Source: Opisthorchis felineus
Lineage: Eukaryota > Platyhelminthes > Trematoda > Opisthorchiida > Opisthorchiidae
Direction: 5' to 3'
NCBI GenBank assembly: GCA_004794785.1
Contig: SJOL01003826.1
Location: 13,849-77,848, forward strand
DNA length: 64,000 bases
In this document: in pieces, positions 13,001 through 61,144 of the stretch
How the letters are laid out: every line of letters starts with the position of its first letter
Numbering within the stretch: the stretch's first letter is position 1
The notes under the pieces: generated by a model
The model's database searches: none
Told to the model about the DNA's origin: nothing
Seen by the model: only the letters and a program-made list of their open reading frames with translations
Position numbers and translations under genes: made by a program

Positions 13001-13485
13001 TTAGAAAGTTGCTTGTCCGGATATCTTTTCAAAGTCCTGTGCCTACAGTCTCCATTACTTGCAAGGCAGTGGTTGGCTGTACACTCCCTTGGTGAATAGT
13101 AGTTTTTCTACAGTGCTTGTCCACACTATGGAATTGACAAGAATCTTGTCGAGCGTGGACCTTAACCAAAGTGCATATTGAAAAAAAGCAAATAGAGACT
13201 TCTAAAATACAGGTAACTGAAAGTTTTGCCGCTTTCTGTTATCACCATGCGCTGATTGGTGATATTTTCCCGGATAAATCAAGCAAAGTCTTTTAACGTG
13301 CTAGGATTTAACAGAGGTTTGTGTTTGCATGGCCAACAGAACAGGATAAGCAACATCCAACGCATCCGTATATTTTATATGAAAGCTTTTGAATCAGGCA
13401 TGAACACAATCGCCTGTTTAGGCGTCATCATCTTCATCATCAAGGACAGCAAGGCGTCAGTGTTTAGGCGTGCTAATTCAGGTGT
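10063..13485. other. Long non-coding stretch, nothing established
   Basis: Several frames of 60-123 codons (for example 11944-12168 plus and 12552-12943 minus) show no domain, no good splice pair and no partner in phase. No repeat family was recognised. It could be intron of the gene whose exon begins at 13853. Confidence 0.45.
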
Positions 13486-13665
13486 GTCCAGCGTGCGCTG
13501 GTGGGGCAGTGGTACTATGCTTGCCTTGTATGTCAGATGTTCGCAGTTCAAACCTCGGCACGACCAAGGATATGCACTGCTGATGGTCAAGTCCAGTGCT
13601 CTCTCCGTTTAGTGTGGAATCACCAAAATAATTGCGCCAGGAGAGGGGGAGGACTGTTCAAATTA
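13486..13665 (+). mobile_element. tRNA-derived SINE copy (hammerhead family), ribozyme stem II deleted
   Basis: The head is tRNA-like: GGGGCAGTGGTACTATGC resembles an A box and D arm, and CAGTTCAAACCTC an internal B box about 40 bases later. The body holds GCACTG-CTGATG at 13574-13585 and GTC-CAGTGC ending 13599. These are the two helix I arms, most of the core and the cleavage triplet of a hammerhead ribozyme, but stem II and the GAAA segment between them are missing. The tail AAAATAATTGCGCCAGGAGA recurs in the copies at 57.6 and 61.3 kb. Boundaries are estimated from the shared blocks. Confidence 0.72.
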
Positions 13666-13852
13666 GGATAGTGTAAATGCGAGTTCCAATAAAGATTTTA
13701 TATATTTTTCTTGTTTCCAACAAACTGTTATAAAAAGCCGACGGATTAGCTGGATAATTTTGTAGCTCGTGTTAAAGAGTTCCAAACCTGCGTGCACTAT
13801 GGGAGTTTTAAAAACTTCACTCACAATATGGAATATTTCTTACGATATTCAG

Positions 13853-17400: not shown

Positions 17401-20400
17401 TAGAGCAAGGATATTGCGGGTTAACTGAGAAGCATTGGTAATAAGCATGTTAGAACGGTGCCCTCCCTAGCTGTACACACACCAGCAGTACAGAATGTGC
17501 AAGCTTTTCGAGTCGTTTCCAAGCTTCGCAAGTCCGCATGGAGCTGCTAAGCTATCCAGATAACATTCATTATCGTTCGATCGAATTCCAGCGGCTACGA
17601 TGGGATTGTTGCAGCAAAACGGCCTTGTTTATGGATTTGCAAGAATGAGCGCAACATCGTATTTCAGTGTGCTTATTGAAGGGGCTTGTCACCGGGTGAT
17701 CTATCGCTGTTTTTTTTCCACACAGACGCACAGTGTAGAAGTTGCGTCGAGTGCGGTGTATTTGTGCAAAGAATCAGACTTTCCGGACGTTCGGCAGTAC
17801 TGCATCGTCTAGCCCCAGTTTTAGCAACGCCAGTTTCAGTACTACTTAACGAGTGGATTCAGACAGATTTGGCACCATAGCCTTGGAAGAAGGCCGTGAT
17901 AAAACTATTTCACGGGTAGGAGCTTAGCATATCCAAAAAAAACTACCGCTTGATCGCGGGACTGAGAAACACAGAAAAAGTCTACTTCGCCTACGTGAAG
18001 GCCAGCACGACAACACTGGTTCACAACAAGGCGTTAGCTGCCAACGCTCTGCTGGCTTGAGATGAATGAGCTAGACAGGTGAACGAAATAATAAGGGCAG
18101 AAAAGGAATTCAGTAACTTTGCCCACAACTGTGTGGACAAGAGAAGATTGGTCTCTCACCGACACTGTGAGATGGATTCGGACTTTTCATCTAGATCATC
18201 GTTTCAGGGATAGAGTGGATGAGGTGCTATGCCAACCGAAGTCCCTAGCCGTTTACTGCGGGGTTTGTCGTAGGATACTGTTAAGCATGGAAGTGCGTAA
18301 GATTCCTGATGCAATGAACTATGAGTTTGCAGACGATCTGAGGAAAACGGTGAGAGCCAACTAGGGCAAGCGGAGACAACGGTAAGGGATAAAAAACTCT
18401 TGGTTATTTCGACGACGCTCAGACTGGCAATGAAAGAGGCCAGATGAGGTCACATTTTATTCTCCCGGGACAGAGGCCCCTAGCGACGTAGCAAGTAGTC
18501 CGAGATCTCGAAGTGAAACTAAATGTTAGACTTGAGCAGAAGCAGACGATCTCTTTATGCAAACTGACGTTCATTCCTCTTTGCGAGGAAGGATTCTGTG
18601 TTGAGGTATTTATACACGCTCATTGCTGGACTACTTGAGACCAAACTACTGTCCCGGTAGCAAAGGAGAATGCTGTGTAGTAGACAGAATTCAACATACA
18701 GCCAGTCGATTGTTTCCTGATCTGCGAAGAAAGACCATACATTGCAAGATACCTCACCTTAAACACAAGTACGATAGAGTAACAAAAAATTTGTATGAAC
18801 CTTATTTGTGCCTGTAAAGAAAAAAAACTACCAAGGATGGACGAATAATTCTTGGCAAGGAAACCTAAAAAACACCAACTGCAGAAAAGTTCAGTAGCCA
18901 ATTCATTTTCAACAAGGTTGGTAAATATGTGGATCAACCCAACAGACCATATAGTGGAGGCGTCCACACTCGATAGATTAACACCTATGGTACAGTTTTG
19001 AAAAATGGAAGAGCGGCTAACCTCCTTCCCATCAGGCACGGTGTCAGATTTGAGCGGAGCTAGCAAACACCAATCGCCTTCTGCTCCCACTCATCTAAAG
19101 CTGGACATGGAAGAACGGACACTAATGAAATAAAAACTGGCTGACAGAGAAACCTATGAATTTTGCTAACAAAGCTCTAATGAATGTTAGCATTTCACGA
19201 AAATACGGGATTCAAAAATGCACGATATATGCCATCTAGAGGAACTGGTGTTTATGCGTCCCGATTCTCATGGATCTGTGCATTACCATTGTTATTCATA
19301 ACAGAAAAAATGCCACCGGGAATGTTTCAGCAGCCATCATTTTTGGTTTGTTCATTTATTTTCGTCAGAAGGAAGTGCCACTTACAAATCGAGTTAATTA
19401 GCTGCTGGAAAATCGAGAAAATCTGGAAATTCACATACCTTAAAAGTGGTGGTCTCGTGGTTGTCCGGGAAACTTAACACTCAGTGGAGTAAAGTATGCT
19501 GCTAAATGGCTTCAAGAAGGGCGAGACCAGAGTTCGGTGCATCCATTTTTGGTGTGGACTGACCTCAATACGAGCATGAGTAAAGGCGAAGGTGATATAG
19601 AAATTTCAGTGGAGAGTTCCTCTAGGCCGAAGGACCAAGAAAGACTGCGTAAGACGTTCAGGAATACAATATCCCTGGAGTTTAATGGGGTGCGCACCGC
19701 TGATGATTTTCATAGGGGTGCAACACCCATGCAGTGCTTTTTGGGTTTTGACGTAGACATACGTCACCCGCAGGATGAAATCTCCATGGGAAAGGAGGAC
19801 TTTACAATCACAGCATTGTGAATATGAGTTTAATAAATCTTGAAATCACAAGCGAACAACCTGTAGTCGGAATTCGTGGCAATTACTGCTACAGGTGATC
19901 ATATGTACTGTGCCAACTACAAAGATAGGCGTATCATTTAATGCGAGCGTTCCCAAACTCACGGATCATCGTTGATATTCTTCTAAAACAACCACTGCAA
20001 CTATCCAAACAACCTGGTTTCTTGTAAGGGGTGAAGTTTGGTTATGTCGTTTGACTCCATTTGATTAGGAATCCCTTGTGCGGAAATGAGCATAAGCAAC
20101 CTACAACACTGGCCAAGTGTGTTATTCACACATTCAAAATGCATATTTTATCGAATAAATACGTCACGTTAGGTGATATCTTGCTCTTAACCACAACATT
20201 TCAGGAAGCAGCAGTGTTTACATCAACAATCTGCTTAATTTTAAACAGACTCTTCCTATTTGGTGCGTGTTACGGGTTGCTTGAATAAGTTGAAACCCAA
20301 GTTGGCAGCTAAACAACGCCTTATTAATGTGCCAAACTACCTATAGAGGAGTTTCTGGTCGATTCGACCGCAGTTTATTTAAAGTTTATGCACAGTTTGA

Positions 20401-26000: not shown

Positions 26001-26440
26001 CAATTTGTCTCTGATTTATTTCGTTTTGCATGTGCCGAATAATGCAAAATTATTCTTTACCGTCTCGTTCAACCTGAAGAAGCGATCACATTGTGCAAGA
26101 AGTCGACAAGGTTGAGCTTTAAGTGGAACGCTCAGCTTGGTTGGTTTATGATGATGACATTGAAAAATAGCACATGCCCATTATGATTAAATTTTTTTCC
26201 TTGAAATTGTAAATGCATCAACTCATAGCTATGGCCTATTCAGAATTTGCCCTCTGTTCCTCCCCAGTAGATACAGAGTGGCACACCACTGCTTTATAAG
26301 ATTTCAAACAACCTGCGCATTTGACCCCTGGTTTCAACAACATATCAGAAGGCCCAAGGTAAATGGGTGAAAACAAACAAGTTTCTGAATAATTTCAATA
26401 CACGAACGAACGCGCAGTTCGGCTACTTTTACTTAAACAC
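23061..26440. other. Putative long intron (first part)
   Basis: No domain or RNA gene recognised. The plus frame of 127 codons at 25732-26115 lacks family or splice support and is not called. Confidence 0.45.
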
Positions 26441-26690
26441 TGGGGGCGAGATGGCTCAGTGGTTAGAGCGCGAACTTACTGACCGGAAGGTCCGTAGTTC
26501 CAACCCGACCTCTGCCTCTCGACTTCCCCTGTCTAGGCTTGGGCAACCCGCAGTATCCCAGCCCTCATGCTTCCTTCTGATGGCATGGCAGTTAGGCACC
26601 GAAAAGGTGCTACAGCTGAACGATTTACTTAAACACCTTCCTGACTCAATAGCCTCTTTTACTGTGTTCTGTCTTTGCAGAAGCAACTAA
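26441..26690 (+). mobile_element. tRNA-derived SINE (MAQWLERE-type repeat of flukes)
   Basis: The sequence begins GGGGGCGAGATGGCTCAGTG, an A box and D-arm-like block (TGGCTCAGTGG), followed about 35 bases later by a B-box-like AGTTCCAACCC. Translation gives GEMAQWLERELTDRKVRSSN then PTSASRLPLSRLGQP, a peptide often seen as a false protein in fluke gene sets because this SINE is so abundant. A tail with GGCACCGAAAAGGTGCTACA follows. It is a different family from the hammerhead SINE. It lies within the long intron of the host gene, in sense orientation. Ends are approximate. Confidence 0.8.
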
Positions 26691-48643: not shown

Positions 48644-48757
48644 TTTTTGTGGAGATTTCGTCCTGTAAGCAAAGCCAGTCTATGCTGAAAAGCCGAGTGC
48701 TTCTCGGCTTTTCAGCATAGATTGGCTTGGCCTACAGGACAAAATCTCCACATGAAA
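48644..48757. repeat. Near-perfect inverted repeat (foldback hairpin)
   Basis: The left arm 48644-48697 and right arm 48703-48757 are reverse complements over about 54 bases with only a handful of mismatches, around a 5-base centre (TGCTT). The innermost 20 or so bases of each arm (CTATGCTGAAAAGCCGAG) pair perfectly. It reads as two head-to-head copies of a dispersed repeat whose single copies lie at 41.1, 49.4 and 52.7 kb. A foldback MITE or a recombination product would both explain it. Transcribed, it would fold into a long hairpin. Confidence 0.9.
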
Positions 48758-56285: not shown

Positions 56286-56490
56286 TTGTAGTGAGTTCGG
56301 CACGCATATCAGTATAAACAAACAAACTAAAAATTCAGAAGTCAACGTGGCGTATGTATTCAACTTGACATATATATATATATAGATATATATATATATA
56401 TATATAGCACTTGGAATATTGAAACAAGAGAATAGTGAATAGAGCCATGAATAGAGCATCAATTATGTTCATCACATCCGCCACACCTTG
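56286..56490 (-). repeat. 3' LTR of the gypsy element
   Basis: On the minus strand it shares GAACA...ATTGATGCT, then TATTCCAAGTGCT, GAATTCATACG-like and TGAATTTTTAGT blocks with the 5' LTR at 59549-59740. A TA microsatellite is present here but not in the other LTR. Ends are approximate. Confidence 0.75.
56369..56406. repeat. (TA)n microsatellite inside the 3' LTR
   Basis: TA repeat with one GATA interruption. The other LTR has GTGTATGTACG at the matching place, so the repeat expanded after the element inserted. Confidence 0.9.
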
Positions 56491-57627
56491 AATAAGCGTG
56501 TGAACGTTTATAATGTTTATAAGCAAATTGCATGTTTAGTAAAATTTGGAATAAAACGAGAATAATACTGAAGTGCTCCCAGAACAGAACGCAGTTCTTG
56601 TAGATTAGTAGGTGATTTCAGATTCACTAAAGGAGATGGACGGTTTGTATCGGGTTTCAAACTACTGCCATCCACAATGTAGCCGAGACATGCGAGTGAT
56701 GGAACTGCAAAAGTGCATTTACCAGGATGAATGGCTACATTAAACTCAGAAAACCACTTTAGTAAAGACAACAGACGCATATTATGGGTAGCCTTATCAG
56801 CAGCTTGCACTATGACATCATCCTGGTACGTCTCAACACCCTCGAAATCTTTTGTAATAGTAGTCATAAGTTGTTGAAATACAGCTGGTGAAACATTCAG
56901 ACCAAAGAGAAGGAAAACTTATCGGAATAACCCAAAAGGTTTGTTGATCACAGTATTACTAGAGGCTTCATCCAGTGGTATTTGAAGATAGGCATCTTTT
57001 AGATCAATTTTTGAAGACATACTTGAACCTAATAAACAATATAGTACATCTTCGGGCTCTTCTGTAGTGCATGTGCATTGTAGTAACCGCGTATTTAACA
57101 TTAAGTTGTAGTTTCCACAAATTCTTGGAGTAGTACCATTGGCCTTTAGTGGAGTAACTATCGGAGTTGCCCAATTTGATGATTCAACAGGAGTCAGTGT
57201 TCCTTTCTCACACATTGAATTTAATGCTTGACAAACAGGTTCACCTAACCCAAATGGAATAATTTGTCTCTTGAGAAACATAGAATATCCTGTAGCTTCG
57301 AGGTTCACCTTGGGTATTCGCATATCACCTGTAGCCTTGGGACATTTGAGTATCAGTTGTTTGAGTTCACTCTGATTTACAGAAGTCAGTAAAGAGCTAC
57401 AAGTTCGCAATGAGTACAAAACTTTGAGTCCGATAATCGATGGTCCTGAGGTTAGAACTAAAAAATTACAATCGATAAGGGTACCTTGGTGCAATCTCAC
57501 ATGGATGATACAACTACCAATTAGAGATACAGATTGTCCAGTGATAACACGGATATTAACTTCTGTAGGCACTATCACGACACTGGGGTAAAATGCAGTT
57601 ACATTTTTGTTCATATTCACACCACTC

Positions 57628-57800
57628 TCGTTTGAACGGTTGTCCTCCTGTTCTGGCGTAATTATTCCGGTGAGTCCACGCCAAAGGGAAGCACTGGACT
57701 CGAGTTTCACTCTTATTAGAGCTCATCAGCAGTGCATATCCAAAGGCCGTGCCAACATTTGAATCCCGGACATCTGACATGCGTTGGACGTTGGATTTGA
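57628..57800 (-). mobile_element. Hammerhead SINE copy nested in the gypsy protease
   Basis: On the minus strand the order is a B-box-like block (GTCCGGGATTCAAATG), GGATATGCACTG, the hammerhead core, GTCCAGTGC, and the tail GGAATAATTACGCCAGAACA. The same order is found in the copy at 13486-13665. It separates the two halves of the gypsy protease and so inserted after the retroelement did. The upstream border is not sharp (57790-57805). Confidence 0.75.
57691..57735 (-). ncRNA. Minimal type I hammerhead ribozyme, apparently intact
   Basis: Minus strand, 5' to 3': helix I arm GCACTG (57735-57730), core CTGATGA (57729-57723), stem II GCTC-TAATAA-GAGT (57722-57709, four pairs, one G-U), GAAA (57708-57705). 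Then comes a very short helix III with loop, CTCGAGT (57704-57698), the C of the GTC cleavage triplet at 57697, and the second helix I arm CAGTGC (57696-57691). All conserved core bases are present and helix I pairs perfectly. A helix III of only two or so pairs is typical of the minimal hammerheads described in metazoan retroelements and the schistosome SINE-like element. Activity is inferred; weak helix III may need a dimeric form. Confidence 0.82.
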
Positions 57801-57840
57801 CTGCGGAATAACGGACTCAACAGTGCCAGGGTCAACCATA

Positions 57841-59525
57841 AAATCATGTTCTGACCAGAAGCGGATATCGAAGTTTTAAAAACGTGCGGCGAATTTCGGG
57901 ACAAAATAGATGGAGAAAGAGTACAGATATCTTCACTTAATGCTTTCAGATCAGTATTAGAATCATAAGTTAAGTGACACACGTTTTTGGACTTACAGAC
58001 AAGTTGAATGTGTCCCGTGTTCCCGCAGGTCAAACACTCCGTTTGCCTGTGAGGGCGTGAATATCTGGAATGATTTCGTTCACAAAAGTCACATTTCTCA
58101 AACTTTTGAACAGTTGAATTAGAATTACGATCTATGAAGCGACGTATTGATGGATTTGGAGCACGAAAGTCTGTTCGAGGTTTGAATGTGTTGTCTATCT
58201 GCATCCTTGAATTATTTCTTTCAGAGTAATTTAGCAACACTGCCTCATCATCTCCGTTACGTGCTTCATATCTTCATACTGCTGACATATTTTTCGAATA
58301 GTCTAAAATTGTCAATCTAGATAGAGCAGCAGCTTCTGTTGCAATTCGGACAACTGAATACCAGCAACGAGTCCATCACATAATTGGTCTTCCAGTTGGG
58401 CACCGTAATCACATTTGGCTGCCTGTGTCTGCAACTGTAATACGAAGTCACGAACCAACTGAAAATTGGGAGCGCATCATCCTATTGAACCTAGTACTTT
58501 CGGGTGGTCGATTCACGCACAAGCCAAACTCAAGCAAATGATTGGCTGGACCGAGTCACGTGATCCATACCCGAACACACGGCTGCCTAGCCGACGGCTT
58601 AGCCGCTTAACGGATGCTTCCACCAATGGCTGTTCGTGGCTGGGTGGGCTGGTGGGATAAGCTTGAGCGCAGAAACCGGCGTGTTCGCGGTTGAAATCCG
58701 GGGGACGTTGCCCGGCTCCTTTTCGATTTTCCCTGTTAGCACGTTTCTTCACTGGACACCACTGCTTTTGCTGACAGTCATATACAGCATAAAAATATGA
58801 TTAACTAAGACGAAAGCAACTTAAATTTCCGAGTGAGAGAAGTTTTGGATATGTAGTTAAGTTTGAATCGAGATTTCCGAAAACACAAATGTCGAGTTCC
58901 TGCCAAACCTTTATTGGACGAAGTGGTGTGGGTAGACAGAAACAGGTTGTGGGAAGAAAGACAGGTCAATAGAGGGCATTTTAAGGTACGTGGGTACGTT
59001 TTGTGACGTTAAGTTTACGTATTCATTTACTGAACGACAAATTGTACATATTTTACGCGGAGAAGATGAGATCTCCTGAAATAAATTCCTCAAATTGTTT
59101 CAAACTATTTTCTCGCTCGCACTGACAGTCCACCTTTCCTTAATTTGTGCGCATTAACCATTTAACACGTTTTTGGCTTGTGCGCAAATGCAGTTGGAAC
59201 ACACGCGCTTCCTGGCTTGTGCACAACTAACCGACGAAAATGCTGACTTGTGAATGAATCGTATGCACGGCTGCTACGAAATTAATTAGTTTGAAGTGTT
59301 GCACAACTTTCTCCTCCAATGCATTATAAGAAATACTGATTGGAGAGTCAGGATATACTACATTTTTGACCAATATATACGCCGCCCTGCCAACAAAAAG
59401 TAAAAAATACTCCGTGAGTTTTTTATCATCCATATCGGGTTTTGTAAGACACCATATGTCAAACCATTCAACGTAATCTTCTACGTCTCGCGCAGTTGAA
59501 TTAACATTTCGGTGGGCATGATAAA
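57841..59525 (-). pseudogene. gag: Gypsy gag remnant, interrupted
   Basis: The N-terminal part (about 59525-59265) reads RDVEDYVEWFDIWCLTKPDM, then DDKKLTEYFLLFVGRAAYIL, YPDSPISISYNALEEKVVQH and FKLINFVAA. After a 0.7-kb insertion it resumes at about 58462 with VRDFVLQLQTQAAKCDYGAQ then LEDQLCDGLVAGIQL and KICQQYEDMKHVT, with stops and a shift. The nucleocapsid part (58110-57985) has KCDFCERNHSRYSRPH followed by ECLTCGNTGHIQLVCK. The second is a complete CCHC knuckle; in the first the last Cys is an Arg. Confidence 0.8.
58505..59230. mobile_element. Insertion within gag, possible TIR (MITE-like) element with a SINE-like head
   Basis: The gag frame is lost at both edges. CACGCACAAGCCAAACT (58514-58530) and the complement of GTTTTTGGCTTGTGCGCA (59169-59186) form a short inverted repeat, and a second similar GGCTTGTGCACAAC lies at 59214. 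Inside, 58635-58730 has a tRNA-like arrangement (TGGCTGGGTGG, then GGTTGAAATCC about 40 bases on), so a SINE may be part of it. A transposase was not seen. The borders and class are uncertain. Confidence 0.5.
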
Positions 59526-59548
59526 TTGCTCCAATAGCGACGCCAAAA

Positions 59549-59740
59549 TATAGTAATTGAGTTCAGCACGTATGTCAGTATGACCAAACGTACTAGAAAT
59601 TCAGAATTCAGCACGGCGTAACAGGTAGCACGTATGAATTCAAACTGACGTACATACACAGCACTTGGAATATTAAGACCAGAGAAAAATGAATAGAGCA
59701 GTGAATATAGCATCAATCTTGTTCGTCAAAAACGTATATC
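59549..59740 (-). repeat. 5' LTR of the gypsy element
   Basis: Matches the 3' LTR block by block, including ATTCCAAGTGCTGTGTATG, GAATTCATACG and TGAATTTCTAGTACGTT on the minus strand. The sequence just inside (TTTGGCGTCGC) is where a primer binding site would lie; I cannot assign a tRNA. Confidence 0.72.
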
Positions 59741-60839: not shown

Positions 60840-61022
60840 CAAAAAACTCACCTGATATCCTGAAGCAGGTTTTCTCGTGAGTTAAATTAAAGGGGAGAAG
60901 CACTGGACTTCGATTCTACTCGTTATTGCTAACCAGCACTATATAACCCTGCCTTTGAATTCTGGACATTTGAAATGCAAAGCCAGCGTGTCACCGTTAT
61001 TCATCCAGCACACGCTGGACCC
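60840..61022 (-). mobile_element. Hammerhead SINE copy, ribozyme decayed
   Basis: On the minus strand the head GGTCCAGCGTGTGCTGG matches the head of the 13.5-kb copy. CATTTCAAATGTCCAGAATT then CAAAGGC and ATATAGTGCTG follow, and the complement of GAAGCACTGGACTTCGATTC is found at 60898-60917. The hammerhead positions read GTGCTG-GTTAG instead of CTGATGAG, so the core is lost, while GTCCAGTGC is kept. Confidence 0.6.
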
Positions 61023-61144
61023 AAGTAAACAGCCGGATTCGAACGGCCAGACGTGTCCATGCTTCGGCAATGAGCTTGTTTGACCTAAGGCCGAACACAT
61101 CGTCAAAGTGTGAGCAACTTCACTTCTTCGTACGTGATTATTAA

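Follow-up and report, generated by a model that had tools for sequence, protein, structure and literature searches.

The Sm-alpha and Sj-alpha elements of Schistosoma are reportedly SINE-like, and because they carry hammerhead motifs, trematode hammerheads are already known. In one survey, the schistosome SINE-like hammerheads amount to more than 38,000 (Sm-alpha) and 5,000 (Sj-alpha) motif matches in two genomes (PMC2770079), and self-cleavage is reported for Sm-alpha and related W elements in another paper (PMC8490949). A second kind of relative is the metazoan non-LTR retrozyme, for which PMC7229834 describes non-autonomous, short units of 170-400 nt with a type I hammerhead, arranged in tandem; its authors, Cervera and de la Pena, point to co-occurrence and shared features and put Penelope-like elements forward as a strong candidate for moving animal retrozymes. 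Penelope inserts in rotifers, flies, and fish, per PMC3846280, show a partial tandem plus an adjacent inverted piece, with the head-to-head arrangement most frequent, as well as 8-10-bp duplications in several cases and an optional 31-bp tail; its authors derive head-to-head inserts from self-priming on an antisense template, not from priming on both strands. The Penelope protein of the anole, according to PMC11167929, cuts and extends both strands and initiates at two adjacent internal sites (AC-rich stem-loop), and since hammerhead mutants left in vitro insertion unchanged in that system, mobilisation need not depend on the ribozyme.

The window analysed here, 64,000 nucleotides of Opisthorchis felineus, contains a motif that is almost certainly the hammerhead of a short SINE-like retroelement, repetitive in the genome of this fluke. 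Similar to Sm-alpha and Sj-alpha, the element is short, SINE-like, and highly repetitive, with a type I hammerhead and a trematode host. The schistosome elements belong to another fluke lineage, and activity has been shown for Sm-alpha and is predicted for the present SINE. In these traits the family is of the Sm-alpha/Sj-alpha kind. It shares with retrozymes a non-autonomous, short build and a type I hammerhead; its unit is about 433 nt, direct partial tandems occur in 9 of 104 clusters, and its copies are mostly solo and dispersed. Like Penelope-like elements it has a hammerhead, an optional 31-nt tail, and short duplications, and its copies form partial tandems and composites joined head-to-head, yet it is too short for a reverse transcriptase-endonuclease frame. 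We would regard the family as a newly recognised trematode case of the Sm-alpha/Sj-alpha, retrozyme-like kind. The literature searched, outside of which many primary papers lie, yielded no opisthorchiid hammerhead among the papers listed; for hammerhead ribozymes together with Clonorchis it gave one paper, on Schistosoma japonicum, and together with Opisthorchis nothing.

The hammerhead motif and the SINE that carries it

On the minus strand, positions 57735-57691 read GCACTG, CTGATGA, GCTC, TAATAA, GAGT, GAAA, CTCGA, GTC, and CAGTGC, so that all catalytic bases of the core (CUGANGA, GAAA, NUH) are present by reading of the letters, and three helices surround that core with helix I at the open end (Table 1). 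The initial annotation had described every core base in order on the minus strand, six-base complementary arms forming helix I, a stem II of four pairs, and a helix III of about two pairs. Letter by letter all of this holds, stem II gaining a T-A pair within its six-base loop, and the cleavage position it predicted is the right place for a GTC triplet. The GGA/TCC extension of helix I is present in both predicted folds (minimum-energy and centroid) and is paired in 82.5% of cells across 65 family copies; the TAT/T internal loop that it encloses is one place where loop I might touch loop II. The minimum-energy fold has a competing hairpin instead of helix II/III and the centroid fold retains helix II, while the fold z-score is only -0.92, with 33 of 200 shuffles folding as well.

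Table 1. Features of the window, with positions counted from its first letter.
Feature	Position	Strand	Remarks
Type I hammerhead core and helix I	57691-57735	minus	cleavage predicted between 57697 and 57696
Hammerhead including extension	57687-57741	minus	from predicted folds and family pairing
Core words	CTGATGA 57729-57723; GAAA 57708-57705; GTC 57699-57697	minus	
Helix I, 6 bp	GCACTG 57735-57730 with CAGTGC 57696-57691	minus	
Outer helix I extension, GGA/TCC	57741-57739 with 57689-57687	minus	TAT/T internal loop between
Helix II, 4 pairs	GCTC 57722-57719 with GAGT 57712-57709		outermost pair G-U
Helix II, extra T-A pair	57718/57713		closes AATA loop
Helix III, 2 bp only	A57705-U57698 and C57704-G57699		loop TCGA 57703-57700
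5'-truncated SINE copy, 179 nt	57605-57783	minus	unit positions 222-401
B-box-like motif GGATTCAAATG	57756-57766	minus	by eye
Left flank AATCCAACG	57789-57797	minus	probable target-site duplication, decayed
Right flank AATGTAACT	57597-57605	minus	probable target-site duplication
Second SINE copy	13461-13678	plus	about 20% diverged; 19 nt of hammerhead (helix II, GAAA) deleted
Third SINE copy	60851-61085 (edges approximate)	minus	about 30% diverged, heavily decayed
Fourth SINE copy, fragment	19495-19570	plus	hammerhead decayed
Gypsy element between LTR-like direct repeats	56293-59730	minus	apparently internally deleted
LTR-like direct repeats	about 56293-56476 and 59560-59730		edges by eye
Gypsy gag zinc-finger region	57851-58111	minus	protein match
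Gypsy protease, N-terminal part up to insertion	57789-57851	minus	tblastn, Clonorchis P0001
Gypsy protease remainder and reverse transcriptase	56517-57605	minus	RVT_1 at 56517-56918

At gathering scores, Rfam retrieved no match in the whole window. The best match was Hammerhead_HH9 (RF02275) with 38.7 bits against a gathering score of 52, at an E-value of 2.8e-6 with 64 kb searched and 3e-8 with 701 bases searched. For the 45-nt core alone, HH9 was again the top clan member at 31.6 bits, and thus the Hammerhead_1 gathering score (34) was not reached, nor was it reached in the window copy's own 3-kb locus (L050). The HH9 hammerhead was described from amniotes. As the best covariance match, it resembles the SINE family in its consensus stem II letters and equal loop size; in contrast, the SINE scores below the HH9 cut-off and is a mobile repeat. 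Among 19 sibling loci, which had been picked for intact cores, six exceeded Hammerhead_1 (RF00163) gathering with 35.6-39.8 bits, and as two of the six are one place, this amounts to 5 of 18 sibling copies, a further likeness to the Sm-alpha/Sj-alpha kind. The initial annotation had held that the lack of a covariance match above threshold would speak against the motif, and for the window copy such a lack is literally what was found. Nevertheless, in our judgement the E-value and the siblings over Hammerhead_1 gathering outweigh that sub-gathering score, and the letters confirm the motif as a real type I hammerhead, with self-cleavage predicted.

We searched the genome (630 Mb, 1848 contigs) for relatives of the window copy. 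The 179-nt segment is repetitive, with at least 45 matches (40 scored of 3631 first-look candidate places), in line with the initial annotation, which had placed the hammerhead inside a SINE. An exact tail word of the family occurs 490 times (249 and 241 on the two strands) against none (0 and 0) for the reversed control. The same annotation's comparison with the schistosome SINE-like kind holds for this short, repetitive type I hammerhead element of a trematode. A general hammerhead pattern found 874 and 890 places, as opposed to 77 and 73 for the reversed pattern; among about 100 of these places listed, three sequence families were recognised by eye. In a viral contig (L001:750-798, minus strand), a hammerhead-like motif with CACTG/CAGTG helix I arms lies just upstream of a small reading frame; this contig was the sole match in the viral collection, and its ORFs resemble, by eye, those of a phage. 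Kinship between it and the SINE was rejected, since BLAST matched it to none of the window's four SINE stretches.

When 29 similar copies, and separately 38 copies picked through the core pattern, were aligned, the unit came out at about 402 nt with a further 31-nt tail; in it, words resembling the A and B boxes of RNA polymerase III promoters (by eye) are followed by the type I hammerhead and the A/C-rich tail. Where the unit starts was defined by direct joins, in which position 1 comes only a few bases after a tail. ARAGORN found no tRNA on 14 sibling loci, so a tRNA-derived origin stays a guess. The window copy, which lacks the family's A-box-like part, agrees with its subfamily consensus, taken from the similar copies, in 172 of 179 positions, in keeping with the initial annotation's suggestion of a young copy, and the other three copies in the window are older. 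Its flanks AATCCAACG and AATGTAACT are equal at 6 of 9 positions and probably represent a decayed target duplication.

As judged from its letters and protein matches, the sequence that received the insertion is a decayed Ty3/gypsy element, in its protease region. Clonorchis P0001 has an unbroken protease, while in the window the P0001 match is interrupted from 57789 to 57605, split by the SINE segment just as the initial annotation's picture of a SINE nested in a gypsy protease gene would have it. The ORF of this region retrieved 23 protein matches, the closest being fluke proteins: the Clonorchis gypsy-like proteins P0001, P0003, P0008, and P0017 (65-74%) and Opisthorchis viverrini P0022 (86% over a short part), with others from schistosomes, Trichobilharzia, and Echinostoma. 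Four annotated proteins, P0019 (Clonorchis) and P0020, P0021, and P0023 (Opisthorchis), match through the SINE part only, hammerhead part included (amino-acid matches only); as these hypothetical proteins contain SINE translation, parts of them are probably annotation artefacts. A sister of the window insertion on contig C943 (L051) has a common left flank, and its SINE is equal at 149 of 154 positions. Compared with this locus, window positions 56921-57820 are 93-99% alike per 100-base bin and 70-90% alike outside that block, suggesting a mosaic gypsy element with a common SINE insertion, produced by recombination between gypsy copies.

Decay of the ribozyme core among copies

The initial annotation had also raised the possibility that the ribozyme was kept by function. 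Among 28 similar copies, the core is changed at 14 of 336 positions and the rest of the element at 120 of 2990, and 17 of the 28 cores are intact against 17.4 expected from each copy's own divergence. This set was ordered by similarity to the window copy, so it is not a random sample; of the 29 similar copies it excludes the window copy and includes its sister, L075 being dropped as the same place as L058. Copies chosen solely by a downstream word provide a second view. Here 47 of 50 loci were kept (L105, L106, and L119 were dropped as repeated or duplicate segments, and L126 of the tail-word set and L059 of the similar set are a single copy), and of these, 31 span the core. Eight of the 31 are intact versus 6.1 expected, and core changes (47/372, 12.6%) compared with changes elsewhere (404/2362, 17.1%) point the opposite way, towards the core being less changed, although subfamily differences outside the core may raise the latter figure. 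Covariation within the family is weak, as expected for neutral copies: in 65 ungapped hammerheads, 31 of them chosen for an intact core, 8 pairs changed on both sides, which 33 of 500 shuffles reach. We rejected it as proof of selection on that ground.

Maintenance by selection of a domesticated ribozyme at the window locus is accordingly very improbable. An intact core amid decayed coding sequence would speak for it, yet the neutral expectation for the similar copies suffices, and the sister insertion has a broken core (CTGGTGA). The functional reading of the initial annotation is not supported by these results; the ribozyme in the window is intact because the copy is young, and the hammerhead matters, if at all, to source elements rather than to this copy. 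That letters of the gypsy coding DNA came to resemble a hammerhead by chance has a still smaller, practically negligible probability. One frame does stay open from 57722 down (ORF 56919-57722), and the core pattern without helices, with 2 places in the window against 0.60 expected, is not rare. A structural descriptor requiring the core, at least 4 pairs in helix II, and at least 5 pairs in helix I, in contrast, finds one place in the window and only 2 across 544.6 Mb simulated with a first-order model (about 0.0002 per 64 kb). The segment is, moreover, missing from the Clonorchis P0001 protease and repeated elsewhere in the genome, and the repeat family refutes chance; on the descriptor rate and the family together we rejected this candidate. 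The window copy is a fairly recent 5'-truncated insertion without a demonstrable role of its own, ordinary and young, and the useful part is the family, whose joins are more interesting than the flagged copy.

Joined copies and the mobilising enzyme

Copies of the SINE are often joined. A first count over 59 three-kilobase loci, which include repeated views of some places, gave 26 loci with a head-to-head join, 11 with a direct join, and none with a tail-to-tail join. Removal of the repeats (L096, L101, L104, L105, and L106, with L085 giving no match) left 53 clusters: 31 solo, 20 head-to-head, and 2 direct only. An enlarged set of 128 loci gave 104 clusters of the hammerhead SINE family, comprising 66 solo copies, 36 clusters with head-to-head joins, and 2 with direct joins only; direct partial tandems (any direct join) occur in 9 of the 104, and tail-to-tail joins in none. 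Here 22 loci had been dropped because they belonged to other families, repeated a view, or were duplicates (L003, L006, L007, L009, L028, L029, L034, L039, L040, L047, L048, L049, L075, L082, L094, L096, L101, L104, L105, L106, L119, and L126), and 2 were unmatched (L046 and L085). As the window copy and L051 share flanks and go back to one original insertion, 103 of the clusters are independent. A recount by selection route, omitting L051 and restoring L068 and L076 (which share only SINE letters with others), found head-to-head joins in 9 of 35 clusters from the core-pattern route, in 11 of 28 from the similarity route, and in 16 of 40 from the tail-word route, with zero tail-to-tail joins in each set.

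The ends of the joined copies follow a pattern. In 20 head-to-head composites, 37 of the 40 outer ends, all of them 3' ends by construction, lie at or beyond unit position 375, and truncation of the inner ends varies widely in position. Two peaks are seen among the 3' ends, at about 390-404 and 425-433, thus at sites about 31 nt apart. Flank words of at least 8 letters common to both outer flanks were found in 6 of the 20 composites (the other 14 had none) and in 6 of 31 solo copies, versus 1.8% of 4000 random flank pairs, so that at least those six composites were inserted as one event. In the 29 composites whose two ends both reach position 375 or further, the tail is present on one end in 19, on both in 2, and on neither in 8, an asymmetry that is not significant (permutation P 0.06).

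Two traits of Penelope-type inserts are thus found in the hammerhead SINE clusters: head-to-head but not tail-to-tail joins (36 of 104 against none) and a single short duplication around the whole composite. Judging from the anatomy of the joins, Penelope machinery probably mobilises the SINE. Transcripts of the family would self-cleave at the GTC and would be reverse-transcribed by a Penelope-like enzyme, which would start at one of the two internal sites; both sides of a staggered cut in the target could serve for priming, and the products would be solo 5'-truncated copies, like that in the window, or head-to-head composites. In the more specific form that fluke hammerhead SINEs are moved in trans, with two cDNAs primed from both strands and joined head-to-head, we hold this a shade less firmly, though we still lean towards it. 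The explanation as a whole, uniting a hammerhead SINE family, the window insertion, and Penelope-type movement, is in our estimation quite likely the best one.

Mobilisation by LINEs is usual for SINEs, and the same ribozyme SINE might have been moved by a LINE through target-primed reverse transcription at the RNA 3' end, which the predominance of solo 5'-truncated copies and the box A/B-like words would suit. We consider this unlikely, if worth keeping in view, as the head-to-head composites have duplicated segments with both 3' ends outward, tail-to-tail joins are absent while direct partial tandems occur, and the 3' ends fall at two fixed sites. If Penelope-type movement holds true, the joins would provide direct evidence from a genome for the Penelope mobiliser proposed for animal ribozyme retroelements (retrozymes) and would explain the recurrence of hammerheads in both element types; as a physical signature, they may help in deciding which enzyme moves animal hammerhead retroelements. 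The combination of retrozyme, Penelope, and head-to-head joins was not found among the literature matches listed.

The SINE unit itself is without reverse transcriptase or GIY-YIG coding; such frames lie elsewhere in the genome (L131). GIY-YIG matches occur at at least six places (150 scored of 553 candidates), of which two were examined. On contig C1143, a GIY-YIG domain is preceded by a frame with a reverse transcriptase-like YVDD motif (by eye), a stop separating the two. The YVDD frame itself gave no Pfam match; of its 57 protein matches, most contain PF26215, some with RVT_1 and one with GIY-YIG, and they include proteins of Clonorchis (77%) and Opisthorchis (72-85%). Downstream of these Penelope-like frames lies a hammerhead of another repeat family, C, without an Rfam match at E 1, and thus the SINE and a Penelope-like stretch with an adjoining hammerhead coexist in one genome. 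The SINE hammerhead differs from it in sequence, and BLAST (E 0.1) of the SINE against 2.7 kb of this one Penelope-like element gave no match. Family C repeats at L003, L007, and L132 match the hammerhead beside the GIY-YIG Penelope-like frame.

A second hammerhead repeat family, B (CTGATGAGCCCCAAGAAGGGCGAAACCGGTCGTC), comprises L006, L009, L048, and L049, and its repeat is 75% alike over 52 bases to the C1143 Penelope-like stretch. Inverted head-to-head pairs, with 8-174 bases between the matched parts, are present in the family C loci L003 and L007 and in two of the four family B loci (L006 and L049). Families B and C were also considered as coding elements and rejected as such, the 10 ORFs of their first loci giving two weak Pfam matches far below cut-off.

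Two further repeats were seen in the window. Positions 26440-26560 contain another tRNA-like SINE, by eye (GGCTCAGTGGTTAGAGCG...), with no hammerhead match. Positions 48648-48752 form a near-perfect inverted repeat, with 50-nt arms that are 92% complementary and a 5-nt loop, which scores below gathering as MIR862 and MIR2646 and is likely a foldback element.
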